A DNA stretch of 64,000 nucleotides from Crossaster papposus (Eukaryota > Echinodermata > Asteroidea > Velatida > Solasteridae). The notes under the pieces were generated by a model. The model was not told the origin of the DNA. It searched no databases and worked only from the letters and a program-made list of their open reading frames with translations. The position numbers and the translations under genes were made by a program. Location: NCBI GenBank assembly GCA_037893245.1, contig JBAIAA010000444.1, positions 439,501-503,500 on the forward strand. Direction: 5' to 3'. Below, piece after piece: positions 9,497 to 58,600 of the stretch; position 1 is the first letter of the stretch; the number at the start of each line of letters is the position of its first letter.

Positions 9497-9745
9497 TGGC
9501 TAGTGAGGGTCTGCATGGGGTACTGGCTGGTTGGTTAGGGTCTACACGGGGTGCTGGCTGGTTAGGGTCTACACGGGGTGCTGGCTGGTTAGGGTATACA
9601 CAGGGTTGTGGCTGGTGAGGGTCTGCACGGGGTGCTGACTGGTAAGGGTCTGCACGGGGTGCTAGCTGGTGAGGGTCTTGGTTCTGGCCGGTGAGGGTTT
9701 ACACGGAATGGTGGCTGGTGAGGGTCTATAAACGGGGTGATGGCT
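9497..9745. repeat. 27-bp minisatellite, right part
   Basis: This continues the array of 7250-8079 after the insertion, with more diverged units (GGTTGTGGCTGG, AATGGTGGCTGG) towards the right edge, as expected at the decaying end of an array. Confidence 0.85.
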
Positions 9746-9910
9746 GGTACGATACACACTGGAAAACTCCAACTACTGGTAGACTATCGAATAATATTAT
9801 CGTTGAGCATGTGGATCACCTGTTTTTAAATCTCCGCCTGGATGTGAGGGGTAGTTCTATATGGGCGTGACCGGATAGGAGGATGATCGCCAGTATGTTA
9901 ATACTAAATA

Positions 9911-27916: not shown

Positions 27917-29615
27917 CAGGGTGTATAAAAAAAAGGAAACCCAACTTAAAATAGTCACTGTGGCAAAACTATACATTTTACAGCAGAAACCATGATATCA
28001 ACTAAAAGTAGACAACAAATGCTTTCCGCTGATACCTCACACATAAATTTACGATTACGCATCACTGAGCACCAGCGTTTTGAAATTTAGGTCAATTTTT
28101 GGAGGTGGCTCACTTTCCAAGTCAATGAAATCAACGTGGCTCCTTTCATAATTCATTCGGGTGTAACTGGAAATGTCTTTGTTGATTATGCAACCACTTG
28201 TGGATAAGCCTAAGAGCTCTGACAGGCCTTCAGACAGTGTGTGTACCTGAGATCACATTGGTTCAGCTTACACCAGGACAGAAAATCTTTGTGGTGAAGA
28301 TTTACCACGAAACCAGAGTTTTCAGGCCACTCAGAATGCGTTCGCAGAAACTTTCCCTGATCGAGAACCACCCACAAAGAAAACCATCTGGTCAAACGTA
28401 AAAAAGTATCAAGACCACGGAACGAGCCTTAACCGTAACAGGGAGCACTTAGGGAGGCGGAGGACCGCAAGAACTGAAGAAAAAATTGCAGCCGTACGAC
28501 AGCAATTGGCCGAACATCTCGCGCAAACAAGTGCCAGACGGAATGGAGTTGGACTGGCCCCTGCGACCTTTAATCGAATTACCCGCCTCGACCTTCATCA
28601 TCATCCCTACCACATCCACATTCGTCATGAGCTTCTACCAGCGGACCTTGAGCGAAGACGAGCTTTTTGCGAATGGTTTCTTGAACGGTGTGCCAGGAAC
28701 CCCAGATTTCTTCGCTACTTCGTGATAGGAGATGAAGCAGGATTTGCGATGAATGGTGAATGCCCCTGCAAGACAGCCACCTGCTTTCAACTTTGAAACA
28801 AGGATGAGCAGAGAAAAACGGACGGTCTGACTCGGACTGTGTGGAAATGGCAGGATCATTGGTCCATTTTTCTTTCAGCGGAACGTCAATGGCCAGGCCT
28901 ACCTCCGAATGATTGACGAAGAGGTTGTACCCCAGATAAAACTCCACTTTGACAGACAAAATGAAAATGGAATGTTCCGTTACGTGTGGTGGGCTCAAGA
29001 TGGTGCCCCAGCTCATCGCCTCATTGCAGTTCGCGAACGCCTCAGAGAGCTCTTCAATGAGCGCGTTATTGCACTCTATCACCCAGTGGAATGGCGCCCC
29101 AGGTCTCCCGACCTGACGCCTTGTGACTTTTTTCTGTGGGGGTATTTGAAGGATAAAGTGTTTGTAACTCCTCCACGCAACCTGCAGGACTTGCAACAGA
29201 GAATTGAGCACGAGGTTGAAGTTTTGCGCCAGAACCCAGTACCATCCGACGAGCCGTGAACGACATGAGACGTCGATGCCAACTGTGTCTTGAGAGGGGA
29301 GGGGGCATGTGGAGGGCATTGGACAGTGAAAAAAAAGTGAAATGTGTTTGGAAATTTCTTGAATAAAATTTCAGAGAAAAAAAACACGAGTCAGTGTTAA
29401 TTTTGTTGCATATCAGAGTGAGCCACCTCAAAATATTTACCCAAATTCCAACACACTGCTGCTCAGCGATGCGTAACCGAAAATTCATGAATGAAGTATC
29501 GTCGGAAAGCATTTGTCGTCTACTTTTAAATGATACCATGGTTTCTGCTGTAAAATGTATAGTTTTGCCACAGTGACTATTTTAAGTTGGGTTTCCTTTT
29601 TTTTGATACACCCTG
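27917..29615 (+). mobile_element. Tc/mariner-type transposon with about 200-bp terminal inverted repeats
   Basis: The element begins CAGGGTGTATAAAAAAAAGG and ends CCTTTTTTTTGATACACCCTG, flanked by TA on both sides. Complementarity continues inward about 200 bp with mismatches (TTTTACAGCAGAAACCATG versus CATGGTTTCTGCTGTAAAA, then GGAGGTGGCTCAC versus GTGAGCCACCTC). It carries a broken transposase gene (28225-29259). The TA target and the DDE catalytic blocks place it in the IS630-Tc1-mariner superfamily. Confidence 0.88.
28225..29259 (+). pseudogene. Tc/mariner transposase, frameshifted
   Basis: The gene is spread over three frames. The first part has a helix-turn-helix region with LTPGQKIFVVKIY, KKYQDHGTSLNRN and a GRRRT-like linker. 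A second frame from 28506 to 28796 holds RRAFCEWFLE and the first catalytic Asp in VIGDEAGF. A third frame to TGA at 29257-29259 holds the second Asp in WAQDGAPAH and the third in RSPDLTPCDFFLWGYLKD; I count 36 residues between these two. At least two frameshifts separate the parts, so the copy cannot encode an active enzyme as read here. Confidence 0.85.
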
Positions 29616-29619
29616 TATA

Positions 29620-31388
29620 TCGTGCCTCGCATGATGCATAGGTAACAGGCATAGGGAAAGGGTGCCTCGCACGGTACATAGGTAACAGGCCTAGGGGGAG
29701 GGTGCCTCGCACGGTACATATGTAACAGGCCTAGGTGAAGGGTACCTCGCATGATGCATATGTAACAGGCCTAGGGGGAGGGTGCCTCGCACGGTAAATA
29801 GGTAACAGGCATAGGGAAAGGGTGCCTTGCATGATGCATAGGTAACAGGCCTAGGGGAAGGGTGCCTCGCACGGTACATAGGTAACAGGCCTAGGGGAAG
29901 GGTGCCTCGCACGGTACATAGGTAACAGGCATAGGGGAAGGGTGCCTCGCACGGTACATAGGTAACAGGCATAGGGAAAGGGTGCCTCGCACGGTACATA
30001 GGTAACAGGCCTAGGGGGAGGGTGCCTCGCACGGTACATATGTAACAGGCCTAGGTGAAGGGTACCTCGCATGATGCATATGTAACAGGCCTAGGGGAGG
30101 GTGCCTCGCACGGTAAATAGGTAACAGGCATAGGGAAAGGGTGCCTTGCATGATGCATAGGTAACAGGCCTAGGGGAAGGGTGCCTCGCACGGTACATAG
30201 GTAACAGGCCTAGGGGAAGGGTGCCTCGCACGGTACATAGGTAACAGGCATAGGGGAAGGGTGCCTCGCACGGTACATAGGTAACAGGCCTAGGGGAAGG
30301 GTACCTCGCATGATGTATAGGTAACAGGCATAGAGGAAGGGTGCTTCGCACGGTACATAGGTAACAGGCCTAGGAGAAGGGTACCTCGCATGATGCATAG
30401 GTAACAGGCCTAGGGGAAGAGTGCCTCGCATGATGCATAGGTAACAGGCCTAGGGGAAGGGTGCTTCGCACGGTACATAGGTAACAGGCCTAGGGGAAGG
30501 GTGCCTCGCACGGTACATAGATAACAGGCCTAGGGGAAGGGTACGGTACCTCGCATGATGGATAGGTAACATGCCTAGGGGAAGAGTGCCTCGCACGGTA
30601 CATAGGTAACAGGCCTAGGGGAAGGGTGCCTCGCACGGTACATAGGTAACAGGCCTAGGGGAAGGGTACCTCGCATGATGTGTAGGTAACAGGCATAGGG
30701 GAAGGGTGCTTCGCACGGTACATAGGTAACAGGCCTAGGGGAAGGGTGCCTCGCACGGTACATAGGCCTAGGTAACAGGCCTAGGGGAAGGGTGCCTCGC
30801 ACGGTACATAGATAACAGGCCTAGGGGAAGGGTACCTCGCATGATGTATAGGGGAAGGGTGCTTCGCACGGTACATAGGTAACAGGCCTAGGGGAAGGGT
30901 GCCTCGTACGGTACATAGGTAACAGGCCTAGGGGAAGGGTGCCTCGCACGGTACATAGATAACAGGCCTAGGGGAAGGGTGCCTCGCACGGTACATAGGT
31001 AACAGGCCTAGGGGAAGGGTGCCTCACACGGTACATAGGTAACAGGCTTAGGGGAAGGGTGCCTCGCATGATGGATAGGTAACAGGCCTAGGGGAAGAGT
31101 GCCTCGCACGGTACATAGGTAACAGGCCTAGGGGAAGGGTGCCTCGTACGGTACATAGGTAACAGGCGTAGGGGAAGGGTGCCTCGCACGAGGTAACAGG
31201 CATAGGGGAAGGGTGCCTCGCACGGTACATAGGTAACAGGCATAGGGAAAAGTGCCTCGCACGGTACATAGGTAACAGGCCTAGGGGAAGGGTGCCTCGT
31301 ATGGTACATAGGTAACAGGCATAGGGAAAAGTGCCTCGCACGGTACATAGGTAACAGGCATAGGAAGGGTGCCTCGCACGGTACATAG
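29620..31388. repeat. 40-bp minisatellite, about 44 copies
   Basis: The unit is GGGTGCCTCGCACGGTACAT followed by AGGTAACAGGCCTAGGGGAA, with variants (ATGATGCATA for ACGGTACATA, CATAGG for CCTAGG). Variant units recur in register, for example 29720-29900 and 30040-30220 are nearly the same run, which shows block duplication of several units. It begins 4 bp after the transposon right end. The minus-strand frames are repeat artefacts. Confidence 0.92.
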
Positions 31389-31389
31389 G

Positions 31390-32740: not shown

Positions 32741-35700
32741 ATGACTTCGGTGTTGCGGAGGAAGGCAAGCCAACTTGTCCAGACCGTGCAGGGAGGAACC
32801 GACCGATGGGTGTCTTGGCTCAAAAGCACGGCATTCCAAGTGATTGCGATCCTGGTGCTCGCAACACTGCAGTTATGGCTCTCGGTCTTTCTGTACGGCA
32901 GTTTCTACTACGCCTACATGCCTACAGTCTCGCATATCAGCCCTGTCTATTTGCAATTCAGGTTTGCTGAACTTTTTGTTATTTTCCTGTTTAAATTAAA
33001 TAAAAAATCCGATTAAAAATAGACTAGACCCACTAAATAACTCCTTTTCCCGAATTTTTGATTTAGCTTGCCGTACTACACTAGGGCCCCACACCAAAAC
33101 AATAAACAAAATGCAAAGTCTCTTGCATGCAGCTTAAGAAAAGGTCGCCAAAACCACGACAATACTTGACAAAATACCTCAAAATTGTCTAAATAGCCTT
33201 TGATATTTGTCCAGGATCAACTTCCAGGGCTTTGGGGGTACTCACGATCAATAATTAAAGGGGTTGCATTGACGTCACGCGCGCTACGCGTACGCACCAA
33301 TCGCACTAGCAACTGGGCCGAGCGGCCATTATTACGGTACATTACCGTTATTACGCAATGACCTCATTGGGGGCGCTGTCGTGAAGTTGTAACGGGACTC
33401 TCGGTGCATATTCCATAGCCGTACATGTATGTGCCCATACATGTATATGTTTATTGTTTACATGTATTTGCACCAACTACACTGCCTAAAGTCAAAGGCC
33501 ACAATCGATGACGTCATCGTCGTGATTATGATGGGATGTTAGATCAGAGACAAGATGGCTGCCTAATGAATGTATATTGTGATTCTCCCGTAATTGTGTC
33601 AATAAATCAAGTGTTACCATATAAATGTAAAGCCAAAGTTATCCAGTGCGGCATCATTTGAACCTTAAAGTGTAATGAACCGTTACAAAGTGCGACGTAC
33701 GTGTGACGTCATATTTTATGCATGTACTTTATTCTTGACCTGTCCAGGAAATTCCACGACAGTATTCGAGCGAGTACTGCACTTTTGTTGATCGCCATGT
33801 TGATTTGCATTAAACTGGATGGTGCATGCCAACCTACGGAGGAGGGGGTGCTCTGCGATGTCACAGGTCATAGTGTATTGCGCGCGCGAATGGTCAAAAA
33901 CAAACAAGCGGCTCGGTTGCAGGGTTAGCTACGGCTGTTTTATAAGATGGCACAAGCTGCACTGTGGCTGTGGCTGCGTGTGCTGTATAATTTTAGTTTA
34001 ATAAAATATTTGTTTTTAACAATGATATTTCAGAAATAAATCGTCATCAGTTTAGCTGTTCAACTCATTACAGGCACATTGCATTGATGGACTCTGGCCA
34101 GTGTACACATGTCTCATGCATTTATTTTAATTTTGTGTTGAAACGAAACTTGAATTTGAAAGTTAAATTCAGAAACTTGTGTATTTTGGGGTAGTGGTTT
34201 CGGGTAGTTTTCTTGTTTGTTTTTTATTTGTGGTTTTTTTGTTTGCGCGATACGTTTTGTGATACGTGTATCGTGATAAAGTGATAAAGTGGTATCGTTA
34301 CACCCCTAGCCATATCCCCCAAGTGGGAAAAAAAGTGGGGGGGGGCGGGGGGGGGGGGGGGGGGGGGCGCTGCCAGAATTCCTACAATCCCACTTTCCAC
34401 TATAACACTTGTGTGTGCAAACAGTGTGTACATTAACATGTACATGGGGATGTTGGATGGATATTTATCAATGCGAGAACAAAATATTCATTACTTGGAA
34501 CAGTTTCCCCAATGTTTGCAGAACTATACAAGATGGAAATGCTCACTGCGTTAACATGGCAAGTTGGCGTAGCGGTTTTTTCCTCGCCTTCCACCACTAC
34601 GACCCGGGTGCGAGTCCCTGCCTGACTCCGTGGGTTTTTCCCAGAATATTCTTCTGGGGTTTTCCTCCCACCTCTAAAACTGTACGTTCTTCTCATTGTC
34701 TTTTCTCTACAGGTTTCTTCAGGCTTGTGAGCTAAAGTGCCTCGGGCGCTATTGAGGAATCCTTGGTTTCATTACAAGAAGAAATAATAATAAATACAAA
34801 TAATATTGTTTAATGCCCTCAACTTTGTTTCCTCACAGCGAAATACAGACAAGTCCCACATGAAAATATCCTTCACAATTGAATTGAATGGTGCTACCAT
34901 TGCTACAGGCATTTGTGACTATCTGTAATACATTTTAGTTGCTGGTACTCTCAGTTCATGGCAGTTCAAAACAAATTCCAACATTCAGAATTACGCTTTA
35001 TATGTGCATGTGGGTAGGCACTCACCGCGTTAGGGGGACAGGCTCTTTTGTTTGGAAAAGACAGACCGACCAGTGGGGACATTTTCGAGTCCCCATAGCG
35101 CGTTGGGTGTTCAGTAAAGGTAGAACAAGGTAAAATCGGGTTAGGGTATAATGAAAGAAAATGAAAAAGAGGACAAATTAGGGTGATCCTGAAAATGTTA
35201 GAATTTTAGAGTGTTCTGAGTATGAGATTAGAGAGATTTCAGTTTACACACAAACCCTATGGGTTGTCCCCATAACGCTATGTACCAAAAGAATACATGA
35301 ACTTGTACGTGTATGTAAAGCTCTCTGACTGACATCCATTGTGGAGAAAAAAGAATAATGAAATGAGCTTTGACCTTTAATTACAAAAAAAAATTCTCAT
35401 ACACATTGAAATCTCGAAAAGTCATTTCTCAAAGGAATGAATACCAATTTTGAGATATCATAATCAGAGTTTTATGTAAAGTTTTCGAGATCACATACAA
35501 ATACCTACAGTAGTACAAATAGTACAAAGTAAATTGTATGAATGGCTTTGAGTACGGTGATGTTTCACAGTAACTCGCTATGCAAAACACATTATTTGGC
35601 TTAAATATACTTGAGTACAGAAAAAGCAACCGGCTAGTATTAGCATCTGTAGTGTTTTCGGAGCAATTATTGTTTGGTTTATTTCAGAAATAAAATCTTC

Positions 35701-38700
35701 ACAGCGTTAAGGAGGCCGAATTGAGTTTTATTTTTACAATATTAGAAAAAAAACTAAAAACTTAAAACATAAAGATAGATAAAAGCTAATGAATTTATAT
35801 ATATATATTTTTTTTTTTATTTTTTTTTTACCAATAACAACAATGACAATAACTCAGACATGCACAACAATGATGACAGCAACTCGGACATGGACAAAAA
35901 GGACAGCAACTCGGACATGGACAAAAATGACAACAACTCAGACATGAACAGAAATGACAGCAACTGACATGGACAACCATAACAAAAACTCAGACACAGC
36001 TGCTCAGCCACATACAACAATGACAACAAAAAACAACAATGTTAAACAGGCAATAGATGCATGTGTTACCATTCGCAGTTTAAAAAGAAAAACTGGATAA
36101 AACACTATAACAAATTAATTAATTATTTGAATCAATCTGAATCACTCAGGAAGGCCAAAGACGAAAAGCGGTCGTAATGGTTGCTTCAATCCTTTGAATG
36201 AAGAAGCGCTCCCATTAACTGCGTAAAAAGATCGCAAAACCTTTTTCATGAGTCTTTATTACCACCCCCACTTCATCTCTTCGTGTGAAGGACGGGTCAT
36301 AGTTCACGTGAACATAGCGAATACGATACAAATTTGACGTCACAAAGCATTTGCTGTGAACATTCGCCGTTCGGAAGGAAAATTTGCAGCACAATAACTT
36401 GCTGTCTGGCTGTGACTTCACAAATTCACATTCGGGTTCACTTGAGGATGCAGCGTACAGGATGCTATTGTAATATGCCCTCTACCGATCAAATCGGACT
36501 GGTCATTAGAAAAACCCGGCTGAGCGTGCTGTTCACTAATTCGATTGCTACATACACCGGGATCGCTACAGACTAATATTAATCCTAACAACAGTCCTGC
36601 GGCCGATTTCACCAATGTTAGGATCAATCTTAGGAAGAGTAACACCTCCTAACTTGCAATAGATCCAATGCAAGTTAGGATGAGTTACTCGTCCTAACTC
36701 GAGATAGGATTAATCCTAGCGTTTCGTGAAATCGGCCGCTGAATCCTCCAATTTCAATATGATTTTCCACACACCCTAGGGAGTTAGGGTTAACGTTACA
36801 TTAGTATCGACAAATGACAAAAAATAGAGATTTGCTATACAAAGTTAAACATGTACCGGTATGTTAAAGTCACAGGTTATTAAGTATTACAAAATATATT
36901 ACTTCTACATGCCTTCATGGGTTTTAATCCTTGGGTCGGAAGACACAATTCTTCCCCAGACTGTACGAGGAGTCATTTGATGAGGTCGTCGTTTAAACAT
37001 GCACAAGGTTCGACTTTTTTAAGAACACAAAACATACATACGTACAGATAGCTAGAAAAGGCGACACTTGCGATGGATAACTGTTGTTTTATTCATATTG
37101 CCCATTGTTTTTAATTCCGTCTAACAGTCAGAAAGAGTTTTATAAACAAGTGTGCCGTAATAAAATATCTAGTTAACCAGTTCGCGCCGGGATTATTTTA
37201 ACATCGCCGAGCCGACGGGCGGAATTATTTTTAACGAAACTCGATCCGAAGCGTGTTCAGGCCTATAGTGCTGGGTAGCACACCCACGCATTTCCGGCCT
37301 TGCGCGCTGCTGACATATATTTCCGAACTTGAACTTGGCGTATATATTCGTCATCCGTTTTGAATTTGGGGAAATTTTTGCGTTTATATTCGTCATCCGG
37401 CGCGAACTGGTTAAAAGTCTCCGCTTTCTTTTGTCTCATTTCTCCACAGTTCCTGCAGGGAGTTTGGTGCACAAACGAATTGTCCCTTCCCCAGTGTGAA
37501 TTCAACTTTAAGGGACCCTGATATGGCAAGCGTAAGTCAAAATGTCTAATTGTCGTCTTGTTAGAGCTCACTGGAATACCGTGTCTGCATCTTTTGTCAG
37601 CAATGATACATTTGACAGAAGGAAAACTCCACCCTCCCCTATAGTTATGATAGTGTTGGTCAATGTGATCCTGGAATCTCAGGAATTTAAGTTTTTAGGT
37701 ACATACAGGGGGAGGGGTGTTATGGCTGAGTGGTTAAGAGTACGCGGACTCAAGCTCTGGTGTTTCTGATCAGCAGAGTTTGGGTTTGAGTCTTGTTCTT
37801 GACACATGTTTCCTTAACCCTAACCCTCCCGGCTCGTTTGGCTAAGACATAACCTCAATCCTCCTATATCCTTCTGTAGTAAAGAGTTAAAAGCTCAAGG
37901 AACCTGGATCCTTCTAAATCCTTCTCAATTCTGCTAGTATGGCTATTGCCCTGAATCCTTCTAGATCCTCCTGCCTGCTGGGGGATGTTTTGGGGGGTCT
38001 GTGTAAACTGATTACTTATCCAACAAATTACCCTCAAACAAATGGAAGTGCCCAGTACAATGCATGACCTTTTCATACCAGGACAAGGGCCACAGAAATT
38101 CCATTGTATGCACATGTGTTTCCTATTGATGATACATAAACATACATTGTCCAGGGACCCTTTCAGCACTGACCCACTGACCTTGCAGTATATACACTTA
38201 CCTTCCAGTACACACATTTGCCATGCACACAAATGCAAGCCCTAAAAATAACCAAGTCAGAAGCATGCATTCCCCATGCCATTACAATGTACACAAATGC
38301 AAGCCCCCTCCCCCATAACCTAGATCCTTCTGGATCCTATTTTGGGCAAAGCTGCATACAACCTCAATCCTTCTCTTTCCTCTTGTGTCAAAAACAGCCC
38401 GATAACCTCAATCCTTCTCAAACCCTCCCATAGCAAAACCCCATCTGCCCTCAATCCTTCTGGATCCTCCTCCACTGCAATGTCCTAATAACCTCAATCC
38501 TTCTAAATCCTTAATTTTGTACAAGAGGAATTAGAAGGATTTGGGAGGGTTAGGGTTAAGCAAGGCACTTAACCACTATTGCTTCGTCCTTTGGATAGGA
38601 CGTAAAGTCGTAGGTCCCGTGTGTAATGCACGTAAAAGAACCCAGTAAAATAAAATAATGTTTGCCCCGGTGTTCCTGTCAGTGGCTGCAAAGTGCGCTG

Positions 38701-41700
38701 CAACACCTTGTAAAAACACTTACAAAGCTGCTACATAATAGGTCTCATATTCTCATCAACTTGGTATATACTTGCGCGATATAAGAACTGTCTGGTTACC
38801 CAACGGTACCCGTCGGGTAACTGCTAAGTATCCGCCGTGTGACCGCCAGGTGACCGCCGGGTGACCGCCGGGTGACCGCCGGGTGACCGACGGGTGACCG
38901 ACGGGTGACTGCCGGGTGACTGCCGGGTGACCGCCGGGTAACCGCCGGGTAACCGCCGGGTAACTGCCGGGTAACCGCCAGGTAACCGCGCCAATACTGG
39001 ATTACGAAAATACTGGATTTTCAGTGTAGCTTAGGCATTCTGGCCAAATAAGACAGAACTTGATGAGCAGAGGTTAAAATGAGGATTAGGAAAGAGAATA
39101 AAATTCTCAATACAATACTGTAAAGTTTGCATACATAACGTGTCCCCCCAAAAAAACAAAATACAAACTAAAAACAGCTTTATAGTTTGCTTTTTTTGTT
39201 TAGGCGTTTTTTTTTACACATTCACTATGTACATGATGTGTTTTCTTTTATTACAAAACACTTATACAAAATTTAAAAAAAAATAAAAAATAAAAAGACA
39301 ATTTCGGGTGGAAGATAACTGCTTACTTGACTAATTTAATTTTTGTAATCATTTTAATTGAGGAAAGTTGTTTTCTTTGGCATAGCTTCTGATGCGAGGC
39401 CAGAAATATTGGATTCTCTTAGAACTAGAAATGCCACAGTCTCCAATCAATGAAAATCAAGGTAAGTGAAATCATACAGTACATAGCCGCGTTCGCATTG
39501 GACTTTTTTTGGTAAAACCTACGGAGACTGTTGTCAACTTTAACCAAATTAAATCCAATGCGGACAGAGGTTAACATTGTCAAATCGTCCATTTTACCCT
39601 CCACAACAGTAAGATCTACAGGCCCAAGCTTCTAGCGGAGGATTTAACACCGTTAACTTTGACAATCACGTACGGTAACTTTTGACAATATTAAGTCCAA
39701 TGCGAACGCGGCTCATTTTGCCTCAATTGTAAGGAATTTGGCAATTTGTTTATGTTCATCTTTGTTTGTGATGTTGGAAAAAGAATAAGGTCAAATGTTG
39801 TGTGAAAATTGTGCTGCTTTTGGATATTGAATACCATAATAAAAAATAAGAAGAAAAATGAAATATAGACTTGTCCAATGTAAGTTGGTTACGTCAAAAT
39901 GACACATTTTTTTATCACATTTTTGGTAATATATAATTTACATGATTCAAAACCTTTAAAGTCTGATGTTACATGAAATAACTGAATCAACTGTAATAGT
40001 ACTTATGAATATTAATGTCACATGGTGGAATGACCCATGTACAAGTACTTTATGGAATTTGATTTTGCAAGAGTGAAATACATGTATATTCCCAGTAAAT
40101 TACTGAAGGAGGGTTAGGGATGCAAGTAATGATATCATTGACATTTCTTTTCATCTTTCTAAAGACCAGTCACAATTTTTGAGAATTTGAAAAAGTTATG
40201 CATTTTATATTTAAAATTCAGATGCCATGCCTTATAAGTGCTACTTGAAGGTTTAAAAATGCAATATATTTATATACAGGTGTATTTATGGTGAAAATGG
40301 ATCTTTATGCCGCTGGTGGTGAAATAACAGCATCGTCATCACGTCCAGTGAGTAAAGTATCGTTTCTCTCAAGGAATTTTGTATAGTATACTAGGATGGC
40401 CCATACAAAAACCGAACAGGCATACTTTTATTACTCTGGGGCGCTGTGTTCCAGTGGTTACGGTGTTTGACTCCTGTACGATGGTACCGTTCGTGGGTTC
40501 GAACCCTGGCAGGGAACATGGTGCTTGTGTTCTTGGGCAAGACACTTTGCTACAATTGCCTCTCTCCACCCAGGAGCATCAATGGGTACATGTGAAGGTA
40601 GAGAGCACATGCGCTGATCTTGAGAAATGGTTTCGTTCCTTGTGAACGGGGATAATAATTGTAAAGCGCTTTGATAGACCCACATTGTGGGAGTCTAAAG
40701 CGCTATAGAACTAACATTTTTATTGTTATACCCTGATGCAAAAACTACCTATACCAAAAGATGGTAACTCAGAAAACCTCATTGAATATACCGGTATCAT
40801 CGGGTTTCATTGCTGTTTTCCTGAGATCTTCAATGCTGTAGTTGTTCGTTCTGTTAGCAGTGAGAACCAGTGTATGATGGCATGCATGCAGTAAATAAAA
40901 CTTCCTTCAGGAAAACATGTTAGGAATGTCTGCACTCGTACAACTTGTTTTCAATAAGTTGCTCATTTCCACTTCAATTGTTGTGTTTGACAATAATCAT
41001 CACAAGTTCAGATAGTTGGGTAGTGGAGTGTCGTGGTCGGGCGGTTAAGAACTCGGTTTTCTGTCCTGCAGAGCGTGAGTTCGAGTCCCGGTGTCGACAC
41101 GTGTGTCCTTAAGCAAGGCAATTAAACCACTATTGCTTCGTCCTTCGGATGGGACGTTAAGCTGTAGGTCCCGTGCGTTGTGTAATGCACGTAAAAAAAA
41201 CCAGTAACACTCTTCGCTAAGAGAAGGGGTTCGCCCCAGTGTTCCTGGCAGCGCCTCGGAATAGGCAACTAGATAGATGGCGCTTTTTAGTGCTGTGTTT
41301 GTCATCCTGGTGTTGGTTTGTGTTCCTGTTTAATTGATATTAATTGATAATATTTTGTGTCTGTATACTGTATTTTGTATACATTTCTTATAATGGCAGT
41401 GTACAATGTACATGACAAATTTCTCCATATTTTTATTAGGAGACTAATATCAGTATCACTATCAAACTTGCTTATTATGTCGGAAACCAAAGTCGCCTGT
41501 GGATTTGGTGGAAAAATTTGTCTGAAAAATACACGTTATTGGAAAAAAAATCAAGCTTGCACAAAAATATATCAAATAAACAAATATCATGGCGCTGTAA
41601 AAATCAACGTGGACAGTAATGAAAACCTAAATATTAATTCAAACTGTCCTTATTAATTACTCTGAGTTAAGTTTATTAGTGGTTTTGGGGGGAGAGAGTA

Positions 41701-44700
41701 GTAGTGGAGAAAATTTGAGTGGCTTGAAAAGTTGGGCTTTTTGGCCCAAGTAGGCAATTTTCTTCTGCGTATAACTTGATATTATTATTTTCCTTGTCTC
41801 TCAGGCTATGCTGCACTACCAGTCCAACCTCTTGAAAACTATCCAAACGTTATTCTTTATTCCCTTGTTGTTGACGGGGTACAGTGAAGAGAAACAGACC
41901 ATCACGGTCAGCTTGATGGAAAATTACCTTGACAACCCGGTAAGTGACATCACAAATCAAATATATAGGGTGGTAAACAAAAACCGGGACGGCCTATTTT
42001 AGCTACCCTCTGACCAGAAACACTAGTTTGGATGAATGGGAAATCTTTCTAATTTTAGACTAAAAAAAAGGATACCAAGCTTTTAAGGGTGTGCGTTTAC
42101 GGGTAGTACGGGACCCGGGTACCCTATTCCCGTCACGGTCGGGTATCCGGGTACCCGTGACTATTATTATAATCATAACAAAAACCCGGAAGTACACACC
42201 GCGTCGGCACATGCATGTACATCCCCGCTCACTCCACTAGCATGCTGCAGCGCGACTGCCGCGCTGGCATGGCGTGCTTACTTCCCCTGCATTCCGCAAC
42301 TAAACAAATGCACGGGCCTACTTTGCAACTCAGGGTTCGACGCAAACAAATTCTAGTCACTCAAAACAGCGGCGGTCTAGTCAAAACCCTTTTCTAAGTA
42401 GTCTGGCGGTCCAGTGAAAAAAACTAAACAAGATAAGTTAAGTGCGCGGTTTTCAGAGCCAGATTGTCAACAGCGATCCCGTATTGCATGGAGTTTACTC
42501 TCAGCTTGTAATAAATGTTTGTAAATAAATTGACTTGCCGCTCCCCATAATTGCACGTCTACAGTGGCACGTCTTTTTCCAAAATAAATAAGGTTCAATG
42601 AACTAAATCCTTTGAGTGAGCCGACACGAAATGTAGCAAAAAAGCCGACCGCAGATCTGCCCGGCTGGCCGCAGAGTTGATACAATAGAACCAAATACCT
42701 CTCCTGCAGTATCAGGTTTCAAAACCACATTCCAGGTACGGGTCCGTGGGATCGTGAATTAATTCAGCACATTTTCCAAAAAGTAAACCTCGGAAAAACT
42801 TTCTCAAAGGACAACTGTAACAAAACACTGATACAATGTCAGCCGCAAGTTATAGCAGCTGTCAGAATTGTCGGTAAATAGACTTCAAAGGCATTTTTTT
42901 ATCACAATGACTACAAAGAAAGCACAATCATCCGTTAGGCTGCTATCTAGACATCGGGAAATTGTCGGTAAAGACATTTTACTCAGATGTTTTCTAACAA
43001 TTTATCGGCACGCAATGAACATAAAAGACGCTTGCCTTTCTGAAATAATGTGTCAACATGTACAAAGGCAGTTTCGGGTAATAAAATTGATAAATTGGAG
43101 CCGGGTACCCGCAATCAGCGGTCGGGTTACGGGTACCCGGGTACCCGGCACGGCCTTACAAGCTTACCTGATTTGGTCCAGTAGTTTTCATTGATGATCT
43201 TTTTATTCAAACTAAGTCAGTGGTCAATTTGACAGGCCTTGACACCGACTTGACACCAATAGACCAGGGATACGTTAAATCCATCGTTTATAATGTACCA
43301 TTTGGAAGAGATCTTCCAAAACGCAAGTAGAGGAGGCCCTTTGGTATATGATTGTCCTAGACAAATGATTGTTCGAGCAATGACACGTACTGGAGAGCCT
43401 GATGAAACCTGACAGATTTAGACAAACAAATTTGATTAAAAAAAAACACTTTAAAAAAAAAAAACAGTTGTGAGTAATTTATTTGATACCATATGTTATT
43501 TTATTTCCTATTCGATTGATTTATTATGCAGCATCCCCTCCTTCCAAGAATAAGGTCAAAAAGCCTACATGTATTCATTTTGAGTAATTTGGACAATTAA
43601 GCGGACACTGTCTCCACAGGGCTGCAATATTAGAATATGTGTTAGATTGTGACAAACTTCTTTTTTTCACTTGAGATATGAAAATGGCAAAAATAAACTC
43701 TGCCAGAACTGTAATTTTGTAAACTACATGTAGCCACATGAGTATTTCTGTTTCTATTACGAATTGTCTTTTTGTACGTCATTGTTTACATGGACAGTAC
43801 AAACCAATGATTGGAGCATGCGTTGAACTTCAAGCAAGACAACTAGAGATTTATTCCTCAATCCTCAAGATCCAAGCTTACTTCACAGGACTCAGGTAAG
43901 TAATTAAACAAAATTTGAAACCTCAATTATAAGTGCTGGGCAAGTAGTGGATTTTGCTACTATAGTACTCGCAAGGAATTTACTCAGAAGTAGTTGAGTA
44001 CTTGTGGGTAATAAACCAAATTCCCATAAGGGCAGGAAGAATGACATTAATATGATGATATTATTCCTTCAGGTATCTGATGTACCAGTGGCCATTTAGC
44101 ACGGCTCTGATCAGCAGTAATTGGTGTTATTCCTTCAGGTATCTGATGTACCAGTGGCCATTCAGCAGGGCTCTGATCAGCAGTAATTGTTGTTTGTCCT
44201 TCAGGTATCTGATGTACCAGTGGCCATTTAGCACGGCTATGATCAGCAGTAATTGGTGTTATTCCTTCAGGTATCTGATGTACCAGTGGCCATTTAGCAC
44301 GGCTCTGATCAGCAGTAATTGTTGTTTGTCCTTCAGGTATCTGATGTACCAGTGGCCATTCAGCACGGCTCTGATCAGCAGTAATTGTTGTTATTCCTTT
44401 AATAGGTATCTGATGTACCAGTGGCCATTCAGCACGGCTCTGATCAGCAGTAATTGTTGTTATTCCTTCAGGTATCTGATGTACCAGTGGCCATTCAGCA
44501 GGGCTCTGATCAGCAGTAATTGTTGTTATTCCTTCAGGTATCTGATGTACCAGTGGCCATTCAGCAGGGCTCTGATCAGCAGTAATTGTTGTTATTCCTT
44601 CAGGTATCTGATGTACCAGTGGCCATTCAGCAGGGCTCTGATCAGCAGTAATTGTTGTTATTCCTTCAGGTATCTGATGTACCAGTGGCCATTCAGCAGG

Positions 44701-47700
44701 GCTCTGATCAGCAGTAATTGTTGTTATTCCTTCAGGTATCTGATGTACCAGTGGCCATTCAGCAGGGCTCTGATCAGCAGTAATTGTTGTTTGTCCTTCA
44801 GGTATCTGATGTACCAGTGGCCATTCAGCACGGCTCTGATCAGCAGTAATTGTTGTTATTCCTTTAATAGGTATCTGATGTACCAGTGGCCATTCAGCAC
44901 GGCTCTGATCAGCAGTAATTGTTGTTATTCCTTCATGTATCTGATGTACAAGTACCAGTAGCCATTCAGCAGGGCTCACTCTGATCAGCAGTAATTGTTG
45001 TTATTCCTTCAGGTATCTGATGTACCAGTGGCCATTCAGCAGGGCTCTGGTCAGCAGTAATTGTTGTTATTCCTTCAGGTATCCGATGTACCAGTGGCCA
45101 TTCAGCAGGGCTCTGGTCAGCAGTAATTGTTGTTATTCCTTCAGGTATCTGATGTACCAGTGGCCATTCAGCAGGGCTCTGGTCAGCAGTAATTGTTGTT
45201 ATTCCTTCAGGTATCCGATGTACCAGTGGCCATTCAGCAGGGCTCTGATCAGCAGTAATTGTTGTTATTCCTTCAGGTATCTGATGTACCAGTGGCCATT
45301 CAGCAGGGCTCTGGTCAGCAGTAATTGTTGTTATTCCTTCAGGTATCCGATGTACCAGTGGCCATTCAGCAGGGCTCTGGTCAGCAGTAATTGTTGTTAT
45401 TCCTTCAGGTATCTGATGTACCAGTGGCCATTCAGCAGGGCTCTGATCAGCAGTAATTGTTGTTATTCCTTCAGGTATCTGATGTACCAGTGGCCATTCA
45501 GCAGGGCTCTGGTCAGCAGTAATTGTTGTTATTCCTTCAGGTATCCGATGTACCAGTGGCCATTCAGCACGGCTCTGATCAGCAGTAATTGTTGTTATTC
45601 CTTCAGGTATCTGATGTACCGGTGGCCATTCAGCACGGCTCTGGTCTTCATATCCACCTTCTTCCTCTTTCTGTCTCTGGTCACCGTGGTGTCGTGGCAA
45701 CAGTGCACTGGGGCATTCTCCAGCCAAGATGAGGAGACCGTGGTCAGACTCGAGGAAGTGAATTCGCTGTCTTACGAGGACCGCCGGAAGATGATCAGAA
45801 AGAGCATGGCCTCCGAACGAGCAGGTAGATACATGTATATATACAGATAGGTGGACGGGGCAGGGTTTGGACATGGGCGTAGTTTTTTGCCAATGAGGGA
45901 TCCTGGAAGATCATTAAAAAGAGCAGGCATTAACAAACAGGTAGTTGAGGGTGGGGCACGGGTGTAGTCACAGTGCACTTTGTGGGCATTGATGAACACG
46001 GGAAGATAATTGAAAAAAAGCATGGTCTCGGACACTCAGGTAGATGTACATACAGTGTGTCTCCAAAATAAATGCAAACAAAATATAACAGAATGCCACT
46101 CGTAGAATGTGTAACCAACTTAGATAATATAGGTATGGTTAGAAAGATACACTGTTCCACTTTAAAATGAGACATCAAATGTCAAAATCTGATATTTTTG
46201 GACAGTTGTGAGTGATTTCCAAGCAGAGGTCAAATTGACATTGAGACCAATTTTTTCAATTTTATTTGGATACGCAAATGTGGTTGTTGCTAATTTGCAG
46301 TTAAACGCACGTGTCCGGCCAATTCCTAAACATCAATATTCAATGCCTAAACACTATCCATCCTAAGCATGTAAACATGTTTAACATGGATGTTGTTTAC
46401 TGCTCCTGCAGTGAAGGCCAGGCAATTATCCACAGAGGCAAATAGGCTACCTTTGTACAAATGCCTAAAATTGAAAACTTGATCCCATGGTCAAATTTGA
46501 ACTGTCTTGGGAAATTACTCATAACTCTGTGAAAAGTTACCAGATTTGGACGTTTCATATTTAATTGTAAAGTGGAAAGATGTATCTTCCAAACCATACC
46601 TACATGTACCCTTGCACATTCTATGTTTAGCATTCTACTCTATTTTGTTTCATTATATTTTTTTAGACATTGTATTTTGGGTAGGTATGGCAGGCGTGTG
46701 GTTGGGGTCCGAGTGTGGTTCATGGTCATTGAGAAATACACAAAGAAAACTGCAGGCAATGCAGTCAATAGGTATTTTCTTAGTTATTACAGGGCTTGAA
46801 TTGAACGACGGCCACGACGGCCATTGTCGTCAGGGCCTTTTTACTGGCCGAGGTGCCCCACTAAAAACAATGGGCAAGTTTTTCCATTTTTGCAGAAAAA
46901 ACATCCACGGGACAAATATTACTGTCTACAATTCTTTATTTCATTTGTATTTTGTTTTTCTCGCTGCACGTATCATTAACGTTAAATGCTGGCATGCGTA
47001 CAGCGATGTATGCACAACAGAATGTAGCTTCGCGATTCCACAGCAACCTAAAAGCAATGTCATGCAAAATGACCTCGTAGTCAAAATGATTGCATTGCAC
47101 TTGTAGCGACAGAGCGCTCGATGAATGGGAACGAGGTGGTACTCAGTATACACATTAGTCTGGTTCCACCTGTTTGATATTGTGTTACAGTATATGTACA
47201 GTGTAGGTAAATAAGTCCAGTCTCCAAGCAATGTTTTGTTACAGCACATTTTTACGTCAAAATTGTGTTCATGTTTTGAGTGTAAAATTGGGTCTTATAC
47301 CATTACCTTGTGTTTTAAATAACGAAAAACTCAACTGCATGTCTGGGTACAATGAGTTCAAAAACACTGGAAGTCAAGTATTCAAACTTCTTCTTATCAC
47401 TTACCGGTCCATAAACGGATCAGCACCCCAATACATGCAACAACTGATATCAACATACAAGCCTGTGCACCAAATCCGCTCCAGTGACGCGCATTTGCTT
47501 GTGGTTCCATCTTCTAGGTTGAAAGCTTATGGGGACAGAAGTTTTTCTGTTGCAGCCCCTCGTCTGTGGAATAGTCTACCAATAGTCCTGAGATCACAAC
47601 CAGATGTTGACTCTTTCAAAACCCATCTCAAAACTCACCTTTTCAGTCATGTATATCAGTAGTTTTTCTCAGACCCCAGCGCAGTGAATAGATTTTCTAG

Positions 47701-47780
47701 ATACCAGCGCTATACAAGTTTTTATTATTATTATTATTATTATTAAGTAGATTTATCGAGTCGGTGAACACCAGGGGAGA

Positions 47781-47818
<38 letters not shown>

Positions 47819-48924
47819 TGAACTTCTAATTAAACTAGTTCTTGCCTTGTTGGACAAATCCACCTTTTATTGCAATGGTCCATAAGTGCGACACCTTATA
47901 GGTTTGACGCCTCATAGGTTCGACGCCTCATTGGACTTATGAGGCATCTGACTTATGAGGCGACAGACTTACAAGGCATTGGACTTACGAGGCGTCGGAC
48001 TTACGATACCGCCCCACCCTCGCAACCCCCACCCCCGACCTTTAATTTTCAAAGTTTGAGAACACGGGAATCTGATAAGGCAGAGTATGATAAGTCTAAT
48101 TAATGCATTGCACATGCGTACAAATATTTAAATTTTAGCCTCTGTGCCCTTACTCCAGATATAATTTATCCTTGGTGCCCTACGTACTGGCCTTGGTGCC
48201 CTCCATAATTTTGCTTCATTCAAGGTCAAAGTGGACTTGCACCCACCCCCCCCCCCCCCCCCCCCCACCCCACCCCCTAAAAGAAAAGGCCTGTAATTAC
48301 TGACACTTTATCACTTGAACAAAAAGGACAACATACAAAAAGTGTAGTTTTTGTCAAAGCTGTGCTTAAAAATCTTTGACAATGCAAGCTGGAGAGAGGA
48401 CATCAAACTGTTAGGTACCACTATTACAAATGTACCTGTAAAACCCTGATTTCTGGGTTTTGTCTTTAGCTCTGCTTCGAGGCCGTCCAAATAATGTCAC
48501 CGTCATCAGCCAGAGGGGCTTCCAGGATGATCGTGATTCTCAGAGTTCAGGTGTCAGCAGCGTTGATGGGCTGTCCACTGGCGACCGAAGCTCCTCCATT
48601 ACGGACACAGTCAGGGCGACCAATGGCGAGGGGTCGTCGGACACGGGTTGGGAGGTTGCGACCCCTCAATCTGATCAGGTTGACTCTAACAGCCCCGGGG
48701 AGCCACAAGATGAGGCCTCGTTGACGCAAGGAGAGGCAGGAATGGTAGAAAATGAGGTTGAAGATAATGCTGGGGAGGAGGAAGAGCCTGCAGTCAGAGA
48801 TCCTGAAGGCGTTGAGAGTGGAGAAGTATCTGAAATGCTGGCGGAGGGAGCTAGCCGACCATTAGTGCCAGAGGGAGAAGAGTTGAGACAACGTAAGAAG
48901 GACCCTGATAACAACGGTTTATAG
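32741..48924 (+). CDS. BSCL2: Seipin (BSCL2 homologue), 8 exons, 450 aa
   Basis: Exons are 32741-32961, 37450-37531, 39386-39461, 40280-40347, 41805-41939, 43798-43895, 45607-45824 and 48470-48924. They total 1353 nt, all phases agree, and an in-frame TGA lies upstream at 32705. Seipin is an ER membrane protein that organises lipid-droplet assembly. Matches I recognise to vertebrate seipin are: [20 protein letters not shown] after the first membrane helix, [71 protein letters not shown] leading into the second helix, then VSWQQ. The C-terminal exon is acidic and poorly conserved, as in other seipins. Both termini are predicted cytosolic, with the lumenal domain between the helices. Exon 1 has an unusual donor (GTTTGC). 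Introns are full of mobile elements, and intron 6 holds the 66-bp array. Confidence 0.93.
33000..34240. other. Seipin intron 1, left part
   Basis: Intronic. A CpG-rich patch at 33265-33400 (ACGTCACGCGCGCTACGCGT) stands out from the AT-rich surroundings and could be regulatory. The short open frames at 33720-34000 have no recognisable content. Confidence 0.35.
34240..34370. repeat. hAT-like terminal remnant next to a poly-G tract
   Basis: GATACGTGTATCGTGATAAA followed by GGTATCGTTACACCCCTAG resembles the end of hAT-type elements (TAGGGGTGTAACGATAC in reverse). It is followed by a G-run at about 34337-34367. No partner terminus was found. Confidence 0.45.
34557..34800 (+). mobile_element. SINE, same family as 3365-3648
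   Basis: GTTGGCGTAGCGGTTTTTTC, CCTTCCACCACTACGACCCG and GACTCCGTGGGTTTTTCCCA match the complement of the 3365-3648 copy. Box B is degraded (GGTGCGAGTCC). The tail AATAATAATAAATAC differs from the GTGA tail. It lies in seipin intron 1. Confidence 0.7.
35825..36010. repeat. Short-period repeat CAACTCGGACATGGACAAAAA
   Basis: About six diverged copies of a unit near 30 bp containing ACAGCAACTCGGACATGGAC lie in seipin intron 1. Confidence 0.7.
36599..36739. mobile_element. Palindromic fold-back MITE, copy 2
   Basis: GCGGCCGATTTCAC opens and GTGAAATCGGCCGC closes it. The arms share AATCTTAGGAAGAGTAAC with the copy at 272-403. Most of its length can fold on itself. It lies in seipin intron 1. Confidence 0.78.
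37173..37414. mobile_element. 242-bp MITE with TTAACCAGTTCGCGCCGG ends
   Basis: The 18-bp perfect inverted termini are TTAACCAGTTCGCGCCGG and CCGGCGCGAACTGGTTAA. It ends 35 bp before seipin exon 2, so the branch point and pyrimidine tract of intron 1 lie in or beside it. Related internal sequence (GTAGCACACCCACGCATTTC) occurs at 49005-49190 and 56335-56470. Confidence 0.82.
37722..38790 (+). mobile_element. tRNA-derived SINE split by a later insertion
   Basis: The head 37722-37817 has GTTATGGCTGAGTGGTTAAG (tRNA-Leu-like box A) and GGGTTTGAGTC (box B). The body resumes at 38556 with TTAAGCAAGGCACTTAACCA and CATTGCTTCG-like sequence (ACTATTGCTTCGTCCTTTGG). The copy at 41022-41335 shows the intact order TGTCCTTAAGCAAGGCAATT, proving the split. 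It lies in seipin intron 2. Confidence 0.75.
37818..38555. mobile_element. 738-bp element flanked by TTAA, with CCCTAACCCTCCC ends
   Basis: The termini CCCTAACCCTCCC and GGGAGGGTTAGGG are inverted, with TTAA at 37814-37817 and 38556-38559. Removing the element and one TTAA restores the SINE. TTAA target duplication and ends starting CCCTA are features of piggyBac-type elements. The interior carries many CCTCAATCCTTCTAGATCCT words and no transposase. Confidence 0.8.
38800..38990. repeat. 11-bp minisatellite GGGTGACCGCC
   Basis: About 16 copies of GGGT(G/A)AC(C/T)G(C/A)C in seipin intron 2. The array changes from GGGTGACCGCC to GGGTAACCGCC units at about 38935. Confidence 0.9.
39485..39713. 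mobile_element. 229-bp MITE with AGCCGCGTTCGCATTGGACTT ends
   Basis: Left AGCCGCGTTCGCATTGGACT and right AGTCCAATGCGAACGCGGCT are perfect complements. CAT occurs on both sides, a possible 3-bp duplication. It sits 23 bp after seipin exon 3. Confidence 0.82.
40437..40735 (+). mobile_element. tRNA-derived SINE with GGGTTCGAACCC box B
   Basis: GGCGCTGTGTTCCAGTGGTT (box A-like), GTGGGTTCGAACCCTGGCAG (box B), a central body, then GTAAAGCGCTTTGATAGACC and a LINE-like tail AAAGCGCTATAGAACTAACA. It lies in seipin intron 4 and is noncoding. Confidence 0.8.
41022..41335 (+). mobile_element. tRNA-derived SINE, intact relative of the split copy
   Basis: GTGTCGTGGTCGGGCGGTTA (box A-like), GAGTTCGAGTCCCGGTG (box B), then TTCGTCCTTCGGATGGGACG and GTCCCGTGCGTTGTGTAATG. 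The body matches 38556-38700. Confidence 0.78.
42084..43158. mobile_element. Nonautonomous hAT-like element, 1.08 kb
   Basis: The ends TAAGGGTGTGCG and the complement of CACGGCCTTA are similar, with many CGGGTACCCG words near both ends in inverted order. The flanks CAAGCTTT (42076-42083) and CAAGCTTA (43159-43166) match at 7 of 8 bases, fitting the 8-bp duplication made by hAT elements. No transposase frame is visible. It lies in seipin intron 5. Confidence 0.65.
44073..45606 (+). repeat. 23-copy array of a 66-bp unit carrying the seipin exon 7 splice acceptor
   Basis: Each unit is 37 nt matching the start of exon 7 (GTATCTGATGTACCAGTGGC and onward to GGCTCTG) plus 29 nt ending in the acceptor GTTATTCCTTCAG. 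The length, 1534 nt, equals 23 x 66 plus 16 nt of small insertions (two of 3 nt, one irregular unit of +10 nt at 44937-45012). The unit equals 22 codons (core [16 protein letters not shown]), and the AG|G boundary makes an Arg codon, so every copied acceptor reads in frame through its unit. One stop (TAG 44959-44961) interrupts the frame. The last nine units are open into the real exon. Confidence 0.93.
45876..46047 (+). pseudogene. Two decayed copies of the 3' part of seipin exon 7
   Basis: Bases 45963-46047 resemble exon 7 from its GTCGTGGCAACAGTGCACTG region (here GTAGTCACAGTGCACTTTG) through GGAAGATAATTGAAAAAAAG and CATGGTCTCGGACACTCAG, with a donor GTAGAT as in the real exon. A shorter, more diverged copy covers about 45876-45943 (GGAAGATCATTAAAAAGAGC, then CAGGTAG). 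Both have lost the frame. They look like tandem duplicates of exon end plus donor. Confidence 0.6.
46052..46680. mobile_element. Element with about 130-bp imperfect terminal inverted repeats
   Basis: The left side (CAGTGTGTCTCCAAAATAAA, TAACAGAATGCCACTCGTAG, TAGGTATGGTTAGAAAGATA) is complementary to the right side (TATCTTCCAAACCATACCTA, CATTCTATGTTTAGCATTCT, TTTTTAGACATTGTAT) over about 130 bp with mismatches. The short interior is noncoding. The ends resemble Tc1-like termini. It lies in seipin intron 7. Confidence 0.65.
47300..47745 (+). pseudogene. 3' end of a CR1-like LINE (reverse transcriptase C-terminus and tail)
   Basis: The plus frame ending at TAG 47660-47662 contains [20 protein letters not shown], then [20 protein letters not shown] and LWNSLP, a widely recurring C-terminal segment of LINE reverse transcriptases. 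The tail AGCGCTATACAAGTTTTTAT followed by a (TAT)n run is typical of CR1/L2-like 3' ends. It is 5'-truncated, in seipin intron 7. Confidence 0.85.
47780..48270. repeat. G-run, ACGAGGCGTCGGACTTA repeats and C-run
   Basis: A G-run (about 47785-47816) is followed by alternating GACGCCTCATAGG and CTTATGAGGCGTCGGACTTA words between 47885 and 48010 in both orientations, and by a C-run at about 48246-48266. This forms a potential large hairpin region in seipin intron 7; no gene. Confidence 0.6.
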
Positions 48925-55600: not shown

Positions 55601-58600
55601 CCTAAACCAACCAGACGTAGCACAGTGCATCAGGAACAAAAGTATGGTGCACTTTGATGCATTCAGCTGTCAACACCAGTGCATGAACAACCACAGTCTA
55701 AGACTATTGAGAGCTAGTCCCCATTAAACAATGCCAGAGATGGATTCTGCTGCGTTGGGTGACCAGTGACACTGAGGCAGTTTGACCGTGAGATTGTTTT
55801 ATCTGATGGATCTTGCTGTTCTGGGCAAGGTTGTCACTTTGACAAATGATGCATGTTGCTGCATCTGGCAGGGTTTCTAGCCAAAATACGGAACTGAAGG
55901 GTTAGGGTTCCCCTGCTAATAATTTGCCTGGATAATATTAATCATGCTTTCTTTTCGTTTTAGATACGGAGCCACCCCAGATTACCTGCCCGCCCAATCA
56001 GACGATTGAGACCGATCAAGGCAACAATTTTGCAACGGTCAGCCTACCCGACGCGGCTGCTGCATCCGATGACAGAGGACGATTTGAAATTACCATTGAA
56101 ATCGAGGGGTCTCATTATGGGTACCGTGTCAATCACACAGTCGGGTTTTATACTGATCAGTCCGTATACACACTGCTGTACACAGCCCAAGATGCAGGCT
56201 ACAATACTGCAACCTGCACCATGCAAATTGTTCTCATAGGTAAGCAGTGACTTACAATGGTTACATCCCAAGACTTTAACATACACGCTTAAAGCGTGAT
56301 CGAATTAACAGTGTGCGGTTTATAGTGACTACTCTTCATGGTAGCGAGCGAGGCTGGAAATATCAGGGTGTGCTACCCACAGATGCCGGCCGAACCCATA
56401 TTCGATCGAGGTTTATGAAATACAATCCCACGCTTGGGCGTGGTCAGTGTCAAAATAATCCTGGCATGAAACTTAACACGCTTGTGTAATATGTAACCTT
56501 TCTCTTCTTGTTAAACTCTTTGCGTCACTAGATTTGACCCCACCAGCGTTTACCACCGGTTGCCCAGGTGACATTGATCGTCTAGTTGACCTCGACGAAG
56601 AATCAGCCGCCGTGGTGTGGCCCAACGTGACAGCATCCGACCCGAACTCGCCGTTGCTATGGAACGCCAGCCATCATCCTGGTGACGCCTTCCCCGTTGG
56701 TAGTGTCACCACAGTAACATACACAGTCGGAGACCAAGACGGAAACACAGCGTCTTGTAACTTCACCGTTGCAGTGACAGGTCTGTGCCTACCTGCAAGA
56801 CAAAAAGACTTATGTTGTGTTTCCCAAATTGTGCTTGTTTTTTATGCCATTTATCAGATACTTGATAGGTAAAGGTCGGTTCATACTTATAACGCCAAAG
56901 TGAATGCAATGCTAATGCTAATTCGCTGGGAAATTGACCGTTAAAATTTTTGCACAAAATGCAGCACAAAAATTTTCCCTGGCGTCACACAGTCACATTT
57001 GCATTTGGTTTGCGACGAGTATATGACCCGGCCTTTATGCAAATAACTTGTGTCATCGTTTTCACTGTGCAGGGGTTAAAATTCACTGTGCGGCCAACAT
57101 CACAGCTGCCACCGATCCTGGAAGTAACGTCGCTTTGGTTTCGTGGGCTCAACCCCAAGTAATCTTCAGTTCACTTCAGAGAGAAGGTGGCAAAATTGAT
57201 AGGTATAATCTTGAACAGGTTTCATCAGGAGATGATGATGATGACGTCGACGATGACAGTGGAAGTGGTATTTTTTACTTCCAAGATGATGGCCAGACAC
57301 AAGTTCAGTTGCTCTCCAACAACAGTCCTGGGGATTCCTTTGAAATTGGATCAACTTCTGTCGTCTACCGGGTTGAGGGCACCGAGATCGAGTGCAATTT
57401 CCTTGTCACTGTCGAAGGTACTAAGCAAAATAAAAGTGCTTTTTCAGGTGCCAGGATGTTTGTAACTGTCACTTCTGCCACGGTGCCACCAATGATTATG
57501 TGTACCCACAATCTGGCCTAAACCTCAAACGATTTCAGAAAGAGAACGTTAATTGTTTGTGGTGTTTAGATAATAATAATAATAATAATGAGGGTTAATC
57601 GTTCTTACTGGCAGCTTAAGCTGAATTACGAAGAATTGCGGCTACAACGTGGTAGACCTTATACATGCACAGCCAGAGATCGATTGCTTACAATTATTAT
57701 CCCTATTCATCAGGATATAGAGACCATGTCTGCAACAACTGGAGATCAGTGCAATGTGGTCACTACCTTAACAGGTACCCATTTATACTCCAGGGTGAAG
57801 AGAGGCAATCGTAGTAACTTTGGCCAAGAACCCAAGCACCATGTTCTCGTCAGGATTCGAACCCTTGTACCATCACACATCAAACACATCAACCATTAGA
57901 CTACAGCGCCCCACTATGAAACTCTTCTTTTACATCATTCCAGATAACGAGTCTCCAAAGCTTGAAGGCTGTCCATCTGACTTCACTATCCCGGTTAGCT
58001 CTTCATCCAATCAGGCACATCACAGGTGGTCTCCTCCAATGGCCTCTGACAACTCTGGTAGTTACGTCAACGTGTCGTTCAGTTGCCGCTTACCAGCCTC
58101 AGCTAGTGGCTGCGACCAAGCGGGCAACGGAACCTTTTCAGTCGGCGTTTCCACGATGACGTACAGAGCCGAAGATGCGTTTGGGAATGAGAATGTTTGC
58201 ACGTTCACCGTGACGGTTACAGGTTCAATTTCCAATTCAAAGTCTTTCTTATGAATTGATTTGCTGTACAGATCGCGGGTCTTTTGTTCATCCCACTTCT
58301 GATACCATAAAGGATGTTGCTGTAAACTAAGTGCTCGTCGAAGCTTTATTTCAGATCAGACCGAATGAAAAAAACAAAATCAATAAAACAGCCATCGATC
58401 TGTCTATGTGTTTATAGTTTGTCATATAGTATTAAAATAAGAACAAAACTTGTACCTCTATTGTACAAGATGGATGCCTCTGCTGGTACTTAGTCACGAC
58501 TCTTTGGTCTTTTTTTCTCAGTTGTGAATCTCATCTGCCCAGTCAATGTCTTTGCATTAGCAAGTCCTGGCTCGACCAGTAACCGTGTCAGCTGGTCAGG

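Follow-up and report, generated by a model that had tools for sequence, protein, structure and literature searches.

A length-polymorphic minisatellite of splice-acceptor copies closes an intron of the seipin gene in the sea star Crossaster papposus

What becomes of splicing when an intron ends in a long row of copies of its own 3′ splice site? The question is raised by the gene for seipin, which cells need to form fat droplets, in a 64,000-nucleotide stretch of the Crossaster papposus genome (hereafter, the window; C444:439501-503500, where C444 is contig JBAIAA010000444.1 of assembly GCA_037893245.1, comprising 1.02 Gb in 1841 contigs). A sequence-only reading of the window had described a minisatellite of acceptor copies in intron 6 of this gene and proposed that choosing an upstream copy would add multiples of 22 residues to the protein. 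Its anatomy was right in naming seipin, the intron 6/exon 7 boundary, a unit in frame with the exon and a junction at the second membrane helix. We put the probability at about 75% that the array, of the type termed ‘mirages’ in amphioxus, is an intronic minisatellite that is unstable and whose copied acceptors are decoys, with the last acceptor normally used and ordinary seipin made. The observed array is one matter; the choice of acceptor and the rarity of copy use are parts of this reading that we infer, and the array probably leaves the protein unchanged.

Intron 6 (43896..45606, + strand) lies between exon 6 (43798..43895, +), which ends with the FxxGLR codons and the donor CAG/GTAAGT, and exon 7 (45607..45824, +), which encodes the second membrane helix and is bounded by the acceptor TTATTCCTTCAG/GTATCT and the donor CAG/GTAGAT; all three are homology models. 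At the end of the intron, a tandem array of 23 units (44073..45606, +) abuts the true exon 7 at 45607, exactly where the sequence-only reading had placed it, and was recovered both by parsing the units and by Tandem Repeats Finder (TRF; period 66, 23.7 copies, 94% matches). Each 66-bp unit consists of a 40-nt copy of exon 7 (37 nt had been reported, but the similarity extends further), a 14-nt filler and a 12-nt copy of the intron 3′ end. The same 12-nt intron end stands ahead of unit 1 (44061..44072, +), and what lies upstream is the pre-array part of the old intron. No convincing match to either flank was found for the filler, and the case for its being old intron sequence that has diverged is weak (P 0.056 and 0.090). 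Relative to exon 7 of the window allele, the consensus unit differs at positions 15, 30 and 38. Scanning the 14 seipin exon boundaries for copies (40-mers, ≥27/40 matching, within 6 kb) returned 23 at the exon 7 acceptor and none at the other 13, so the copies are not a matter of chance similarity.

The array is regular, with exceptions. The reported unit length of 66 bp holds for 20 of the 23 units, while units 5 and 12 measure 69 bp and unit 14 measures 76 bp. An acceptor had been claimed for every unit; AG is kept at 22 of the 23 copied positions, the exception again being unit 14 (44937..45012, +), which is preceded by CAT instead of CAG and carries a frame shift and an in-frame stop. Within each copy, the phase equals that of exon 7, as stated, but unit 14 leaves units 1–14 one base out of frame, and reading through from any of them meets stops (12 each). 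Units 15–23 (45013..45606, +), nine in all, read into exon 7 in its frame and without a stop, in line with what had been reported.

Is the array real? Searching the assembly, we found it on two contigs only, that of the window and a second one, C605. The latter runs collinear with the window, apart from gaps, between ~0.6 and 50 kb and shows mostly 90–96% alignment identity over the 10 kb around the array. The C605 array has 34 units, all of 66 bp and all (34/34) open to exon 7, with AG missing before 4 of the 34 copies, compared with 1 of 23 in the window allele. With its 34 units against the 23 of the window haplotype, this second, collinear contig establishes the array as real and polymorphic in length, bearing out the suggestion that copy number can change. 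The size of the assembly is compatible with two haplotypes being present, which we presume from the genome sizes of sea stars. Between the alleles, the intron ahead of the array aligns with 139 identities, 17 mismatches and 9 gap positions, and exon 7 differs at a single, synonymous site, the allele-specific G/T at its position 37. The arrays themselves have only 4 unit types in common (of 13 and 14) and no common run of more than 3 units, and the C605 array holds a direct repeat of a 6-unit block. Array length and unit order have thus changed far more than the adjoining exons. Per 66 bp, units of the same haplotype differ by 2.42 and 2.15 on average and units of different haplotypes by 2.39, with no clear between-haplotype excess.

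Tandem copies of exon/intron boundaries have been named ‘mirages’ in amphioxus (PMC3087553, PMC3902484). The available portions of these papers describe globin mirages in BflGb6 and BflGb9 and cite Adh3 and further loci (PMC3087553), and add a mirage in PGBD5 while citing one in troponin C (PMC3902484). As in those loci, the seipin units run in tandem across an exon/intron boundary and repeat the splice signals in many units: 12 nt of each come from the intron end and 40 nt from exon 7, and AG precedes 22/23 and 30/34 copies (many but not all), the boundary itself being homology-modelled. Copy number varies here as it does there, where BflGb6 has 6 units on one haplotype and 3 on the other, and the counts for PGBD5 differ between assemblies (2 versus 7, 3 versus 6). 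For Adh3, many array lengths and somatic variants are reported. Boundary units of BflGb6 are described as escaping homogenization. At the seipin locus, Arg occurs in the exon only, which sets the exon copy apart, but the mean unit differences given above show no clear sign that each array homogenizes within itself. The differences lie in the host, which is a sea star and not a lancelet, in the gene, in the 14-nt filler, in a 66-bp unit that is in frame with the exon (with 34/34 units open in one allele) and in the 23 and 34 copies, which exceed the 2 to 7 given for amphioxus mirages in those portions (Adh3 is not among these counts). A more distant likeness is found in the internal repeats of human segmental duplications, which, as far as the accessible text goes, are genic minisatellites of variable number, some of them thought to activate cryptic splice sites (PMC2812944); these differ in lying in paralogues, in forming short arrays (on average ~4 units of 30 bp) and in falling half in coding sequence. 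We recognized no mirage-type array from an echinoderm among the papers listed from the open-licence literature, judged by titles and the beginnings of abstracts. The kind of array is known, and the sequence-only reading was aware of no described case in seipin; seipin as the gene and echinoderms as the phylum are new as far as the searched literature shows. Also new are the number of copies and an allele whose frame is open throughout.

A second boundary duplication was observed in the window at 1284-1620 (−), where the end of an EGF-like exon (1526-1660, −; PF07974 match), its donor and the start of the intron occur in three copies. These are 146 and 142 bp apart, neither a multiple of three, and the third has diverged at the donor end. 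Three copies are likewise present on the other haplotype, with spacings of 146 and 919 bp (L028 offsets 3753, 3899 and 4818). In a survey of 30 kinase loci, some of which look like alleles or family copies, TRF arrays (period ≥25) at or ≤60 nt from the matched coding stretch were found at none (0/30), which speaks against a high frequency of such arrays, although the survey is a poor one, dealing mostly with long exons.

How could such an array persist in a gene? Under the mirage reading, DNA spanning the junction of intron 6 and exon 7 would have been duplicated in tandem, and the copies would have multiplied within the intron via unequal exchange or slippage. The splicing machinery would then pick the last acceptor, the sole one beside the whole of exon 7 and a donor 218 nt downstream (exon definition); the copies would be decoys, silent or seldom used, and ordinary seipin would be made. 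Exon context and proximity are what decide between duplicated acceptors in classical work on duplicated splice sites. The lost AGs, the frame-shifting unit in one allele and the unconstrained substitutions (see below) are the decay expected without function. In the portions of the amphioxus papers available, normal splicing seems undisturbed in the globins and Adh3, as suggested by RT-PCR (reverse transcription PCR) and the Adh3 data (PMC3087553), and the Adh and troponin C mirages are likewise reported not to disturb the mRNA (PMC3902484).

The position of the junction points the same way. In yeast seipin, according to the available part of the report, FxxGLR belongs to a switch region that leads from the lumenal domain to the second helix, and shuffling or deleting switch regions impaired the protein (PMC8930772). 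The exon 6/exon 7 junction of the sea-star gene lies directly behind FTGLR, and an insert at this junction is absent in the 8 relatives aligned (of 65 found). Judged from the yeast protein, an insert after FxxGLR would most likely harm or alter seipin, and since damage to the switch region impairs yeast seipin, this favours rare use of the copies.

The splice signals themselves give a mixed picture. A branch-point-like CTGAT, identified by motif match only, lies ahead of the true acceptor in both alleles (A at about −29); in the window it occupies 45575..45579 (+), within the exon-derived part of unit 23. In the window allele, it precedes 16 of 24 acceptors, the true one included, and is missing before 8, one of which is the nearest copy (unit 23); its presence tracks an ATC that replaces the GTC of the exon in the exon-derived part. 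In this allele only, the pattern would favour the true acceptor over its nearest neighbour.

Several observations weigh against exclusive use of the last acceptor. CTGAT precedes 31 of 35 acceptors in the C605 allele. The 23-nt acceptor window of the true site is identical in 14 of the 23 window-allele copies, and the true acceptor on C605 has an A inside its pyrimidine run (TTATTCATTCAG), a window matched by just 2 of the 34 copies; to judge by these comparisons, the core acceptor sequence does not favour the true site. The true acceptor must also, it would seem, use a branch point within the array, because the old upstream intron, probably with the original branch point, stays before unit 1, so that later acceptors need array branch points. 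Mirage copies could, moreover, be cryptic sites, as is raised in the available part of one of the amphioxus papers (PMC3087553). Nor would RNA structure hide the copies: in the window allele, predicted local folding gave unpaired values of 0.0004–0.10 at the copies against 0.034 at the true acceptor, and in the C605 allele 0.0003–0.20 against 0.022, which does not separate the two, and we rejected occlusion as an explanation. On sequence grounds, the whole of exon 7 and the donor behind it appear to be what distinguishes the true acceptor in both alleles.

Could the copies nonetheless be used often enough to yield seipin isoforms with N × 22 residues between FxxGLR and the second helix? The alleles would then set the range, with up to 9 inserts from one and up to 34 from the other. 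The unit of 22 codons, the identity of the acceptor window in 14/23 copies, the 9/23 and 34/34 copies open to exon 7 and the CTGAT at about −29 before 16/24 and 31/35 acceptors (true one included) are all in keeping with this, yet we consider it unlikely. A length of 3n combined with an open frame has a chance of ~0.21 (64% open × 1/3), estimated from 664 AG sites in seipin introns, and in the consensus unit one antisense frame stays just as open. Open frames of this length are thus weak evidence of use. The two alleles together have 54 full-length units, in which we counted 13 substitution types, 2 synonymous, 10 residue-changing and 1 that would create a stop if alone, which occurs only together with its neighbouring change. 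With a synonymous share of 35/198 among the possible changes in the unit, the substitutions look neutral, as expected without coding constraint, although the power of 13 types is low. The idea that the open frame is under selection was accordingly considered and found unsupported. The insert would also interrupt the switch region, and yeast seipin is impaired when its switch regions are shuffled or deleted (PMC8930772); the amphioxus mirages are, in the portions cited above, reported as silent. No match to the repeat at E ≤ 0.01 was found among 118 candidate proteins, which carries little weight, as ordinary seipins likewise went unscored; the best database protein for the host seipin is 78% identical, and the seipin of this species is seemingly absent there.

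Coding minisatellites such as MUC-type repeats have an in-frame unit and a variable copy number. Unlike these, the seipin array is intronic and carries an acceptor copy in each unit, and coding constraint was not seen (2/13 types synonymous, with low power).

The residues encoded by the copies bear on the history of the array. As first noted, the copies have Gln (CAG) where the exon has Arg (CGG): CAG is found in 20/20 full-length window units, unit 14 being rearranged at this site. Where the reported core of the repeat shows Thr, most units (14/20) have AGG (Arg). Across both alleles, position 15 of the unit is A in 54/54 units and G in both exon 7 alleles, so that 52 units encode Gln and 2, through a neighbouring change, Lys, where the exons encode Arg. 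This array-wide difference indicates that array and exon evolve separately. The Patiria and Acanthaster seipins have Gln at the site of the exon Arg; comparison of these sequences suggests that Gln is likely the older state and Arg derived, and that the copies seem to keep the older state of the exon.

A stronger version of copy use, in which polymorphic near-identical 3′ splice sites compete for one donor, part of the seipin gains 22-residue hinge inserts and allele length tunes the lipid-droplet cage, is in our view unlikely, a shade more so than isoform production as such. The pool of AG-bearing copies is 22 in the window allele (9 in frame) and 30 on C605 (all in frame), and CTGAT/CTGGT branch-point variants travelling with the units may, on this account, decide which acceptors are live.

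We think it improbable that the copies serve ratchet (recursive) splicing, by which joining exon 6 to a copy would restore a donor-like CAG/GTATCT, to be spliced onward until exon 7 is reached, correcting wrong acceptor choices. GT does stand directly behind the acceptor position in 23/23 units (19 GTATCT, 4 GTATCC), and exon 6 likewise ends in CAG; GTATCT, on the other hand, differs from GTAAGT at two positions, and exon 7 starts identically, so that skipping of exon 7 would be equally allowed. An assembly artefact or misjoined repeat, to which the examination of a single assembly might point, is hardly credible given two collinear contigs with matching flanks whose arrays differ in length and unit make-up.

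The array sits in a seipin gene of eight exons (window 32741-48924, +) with a joined protein of 450 residues, modelled from homology and splice consensus, not from transcripts. Besides exons 6 and 7, the homology model places exon 1, with the start codon and first membrane helix, at 32741..32961, exon 3 at 39386..39461, exon 4 at 40280..40347 and exon 5 at 41805..41939 (all +). Exon 2 (37450..37531, +, or starting at 37459) is the least certain of the eight calls, although it agrees with the Patiria and Acanthaster seipins, and exon 8 (48470..48924, +), with the stop codon, is joined in frame to match Patiria ERAALLRGRP. The product matches PF06775 at E 1e-61 (residues 44-246), aligns with solved seipins in PDB across residues 18-262 at the widest and has two membrane helices, placed by alignment only, flanking the lumenal domain. 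Its closest proteins are from Patiria miniata (Asteroidea, Valvatida; 78%), Acanthaster planci (72%) and Asterias rubens (50%), and Branchiostoma floridae seipin has 38% identity.

Other repeats were observed in and beyond the window. A similar 27-bp unit forms two separate arrays, at 7253-8079 and 9497-9748, with an 82-bp array between them. At 28251-29256 (+), we read transposase-like open frames, the first with a DUF4817 helix-turn-helix match and the second with no Pfam match, and downstream of them lies a 40-bp minisatellite of ~44 copies (29622-31389). The HYR-domain region at 56400-57700 has at least 42 matches, of which at least 19 are on C605 and at least 5 on C444 (40 of 1208 candidates were scored, making these lower bounds), which suggests a copy-number-variable cluster. 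A further contig, C701, carries 28 kinase-domain matches at ~218900-438400, nearly all of the same score and mostly ~6.7 kb apart, which form a long tandem gene array; more lie on C282 and C359.

If the copies are silent, the seipin locus would be a natural test of acceptor choice, with dozens of near-identical acceptors in one intron that differ mainly in their distance to the real exon and donor, and with an allelic pair within one assembly. If some copies are used, the length of the seipin hinge would depend on the allele. Boundary-spanning minisatellites, described in lancelets, may be more widespread among deuterostomes, and could supply new introns or allow exons to grow.

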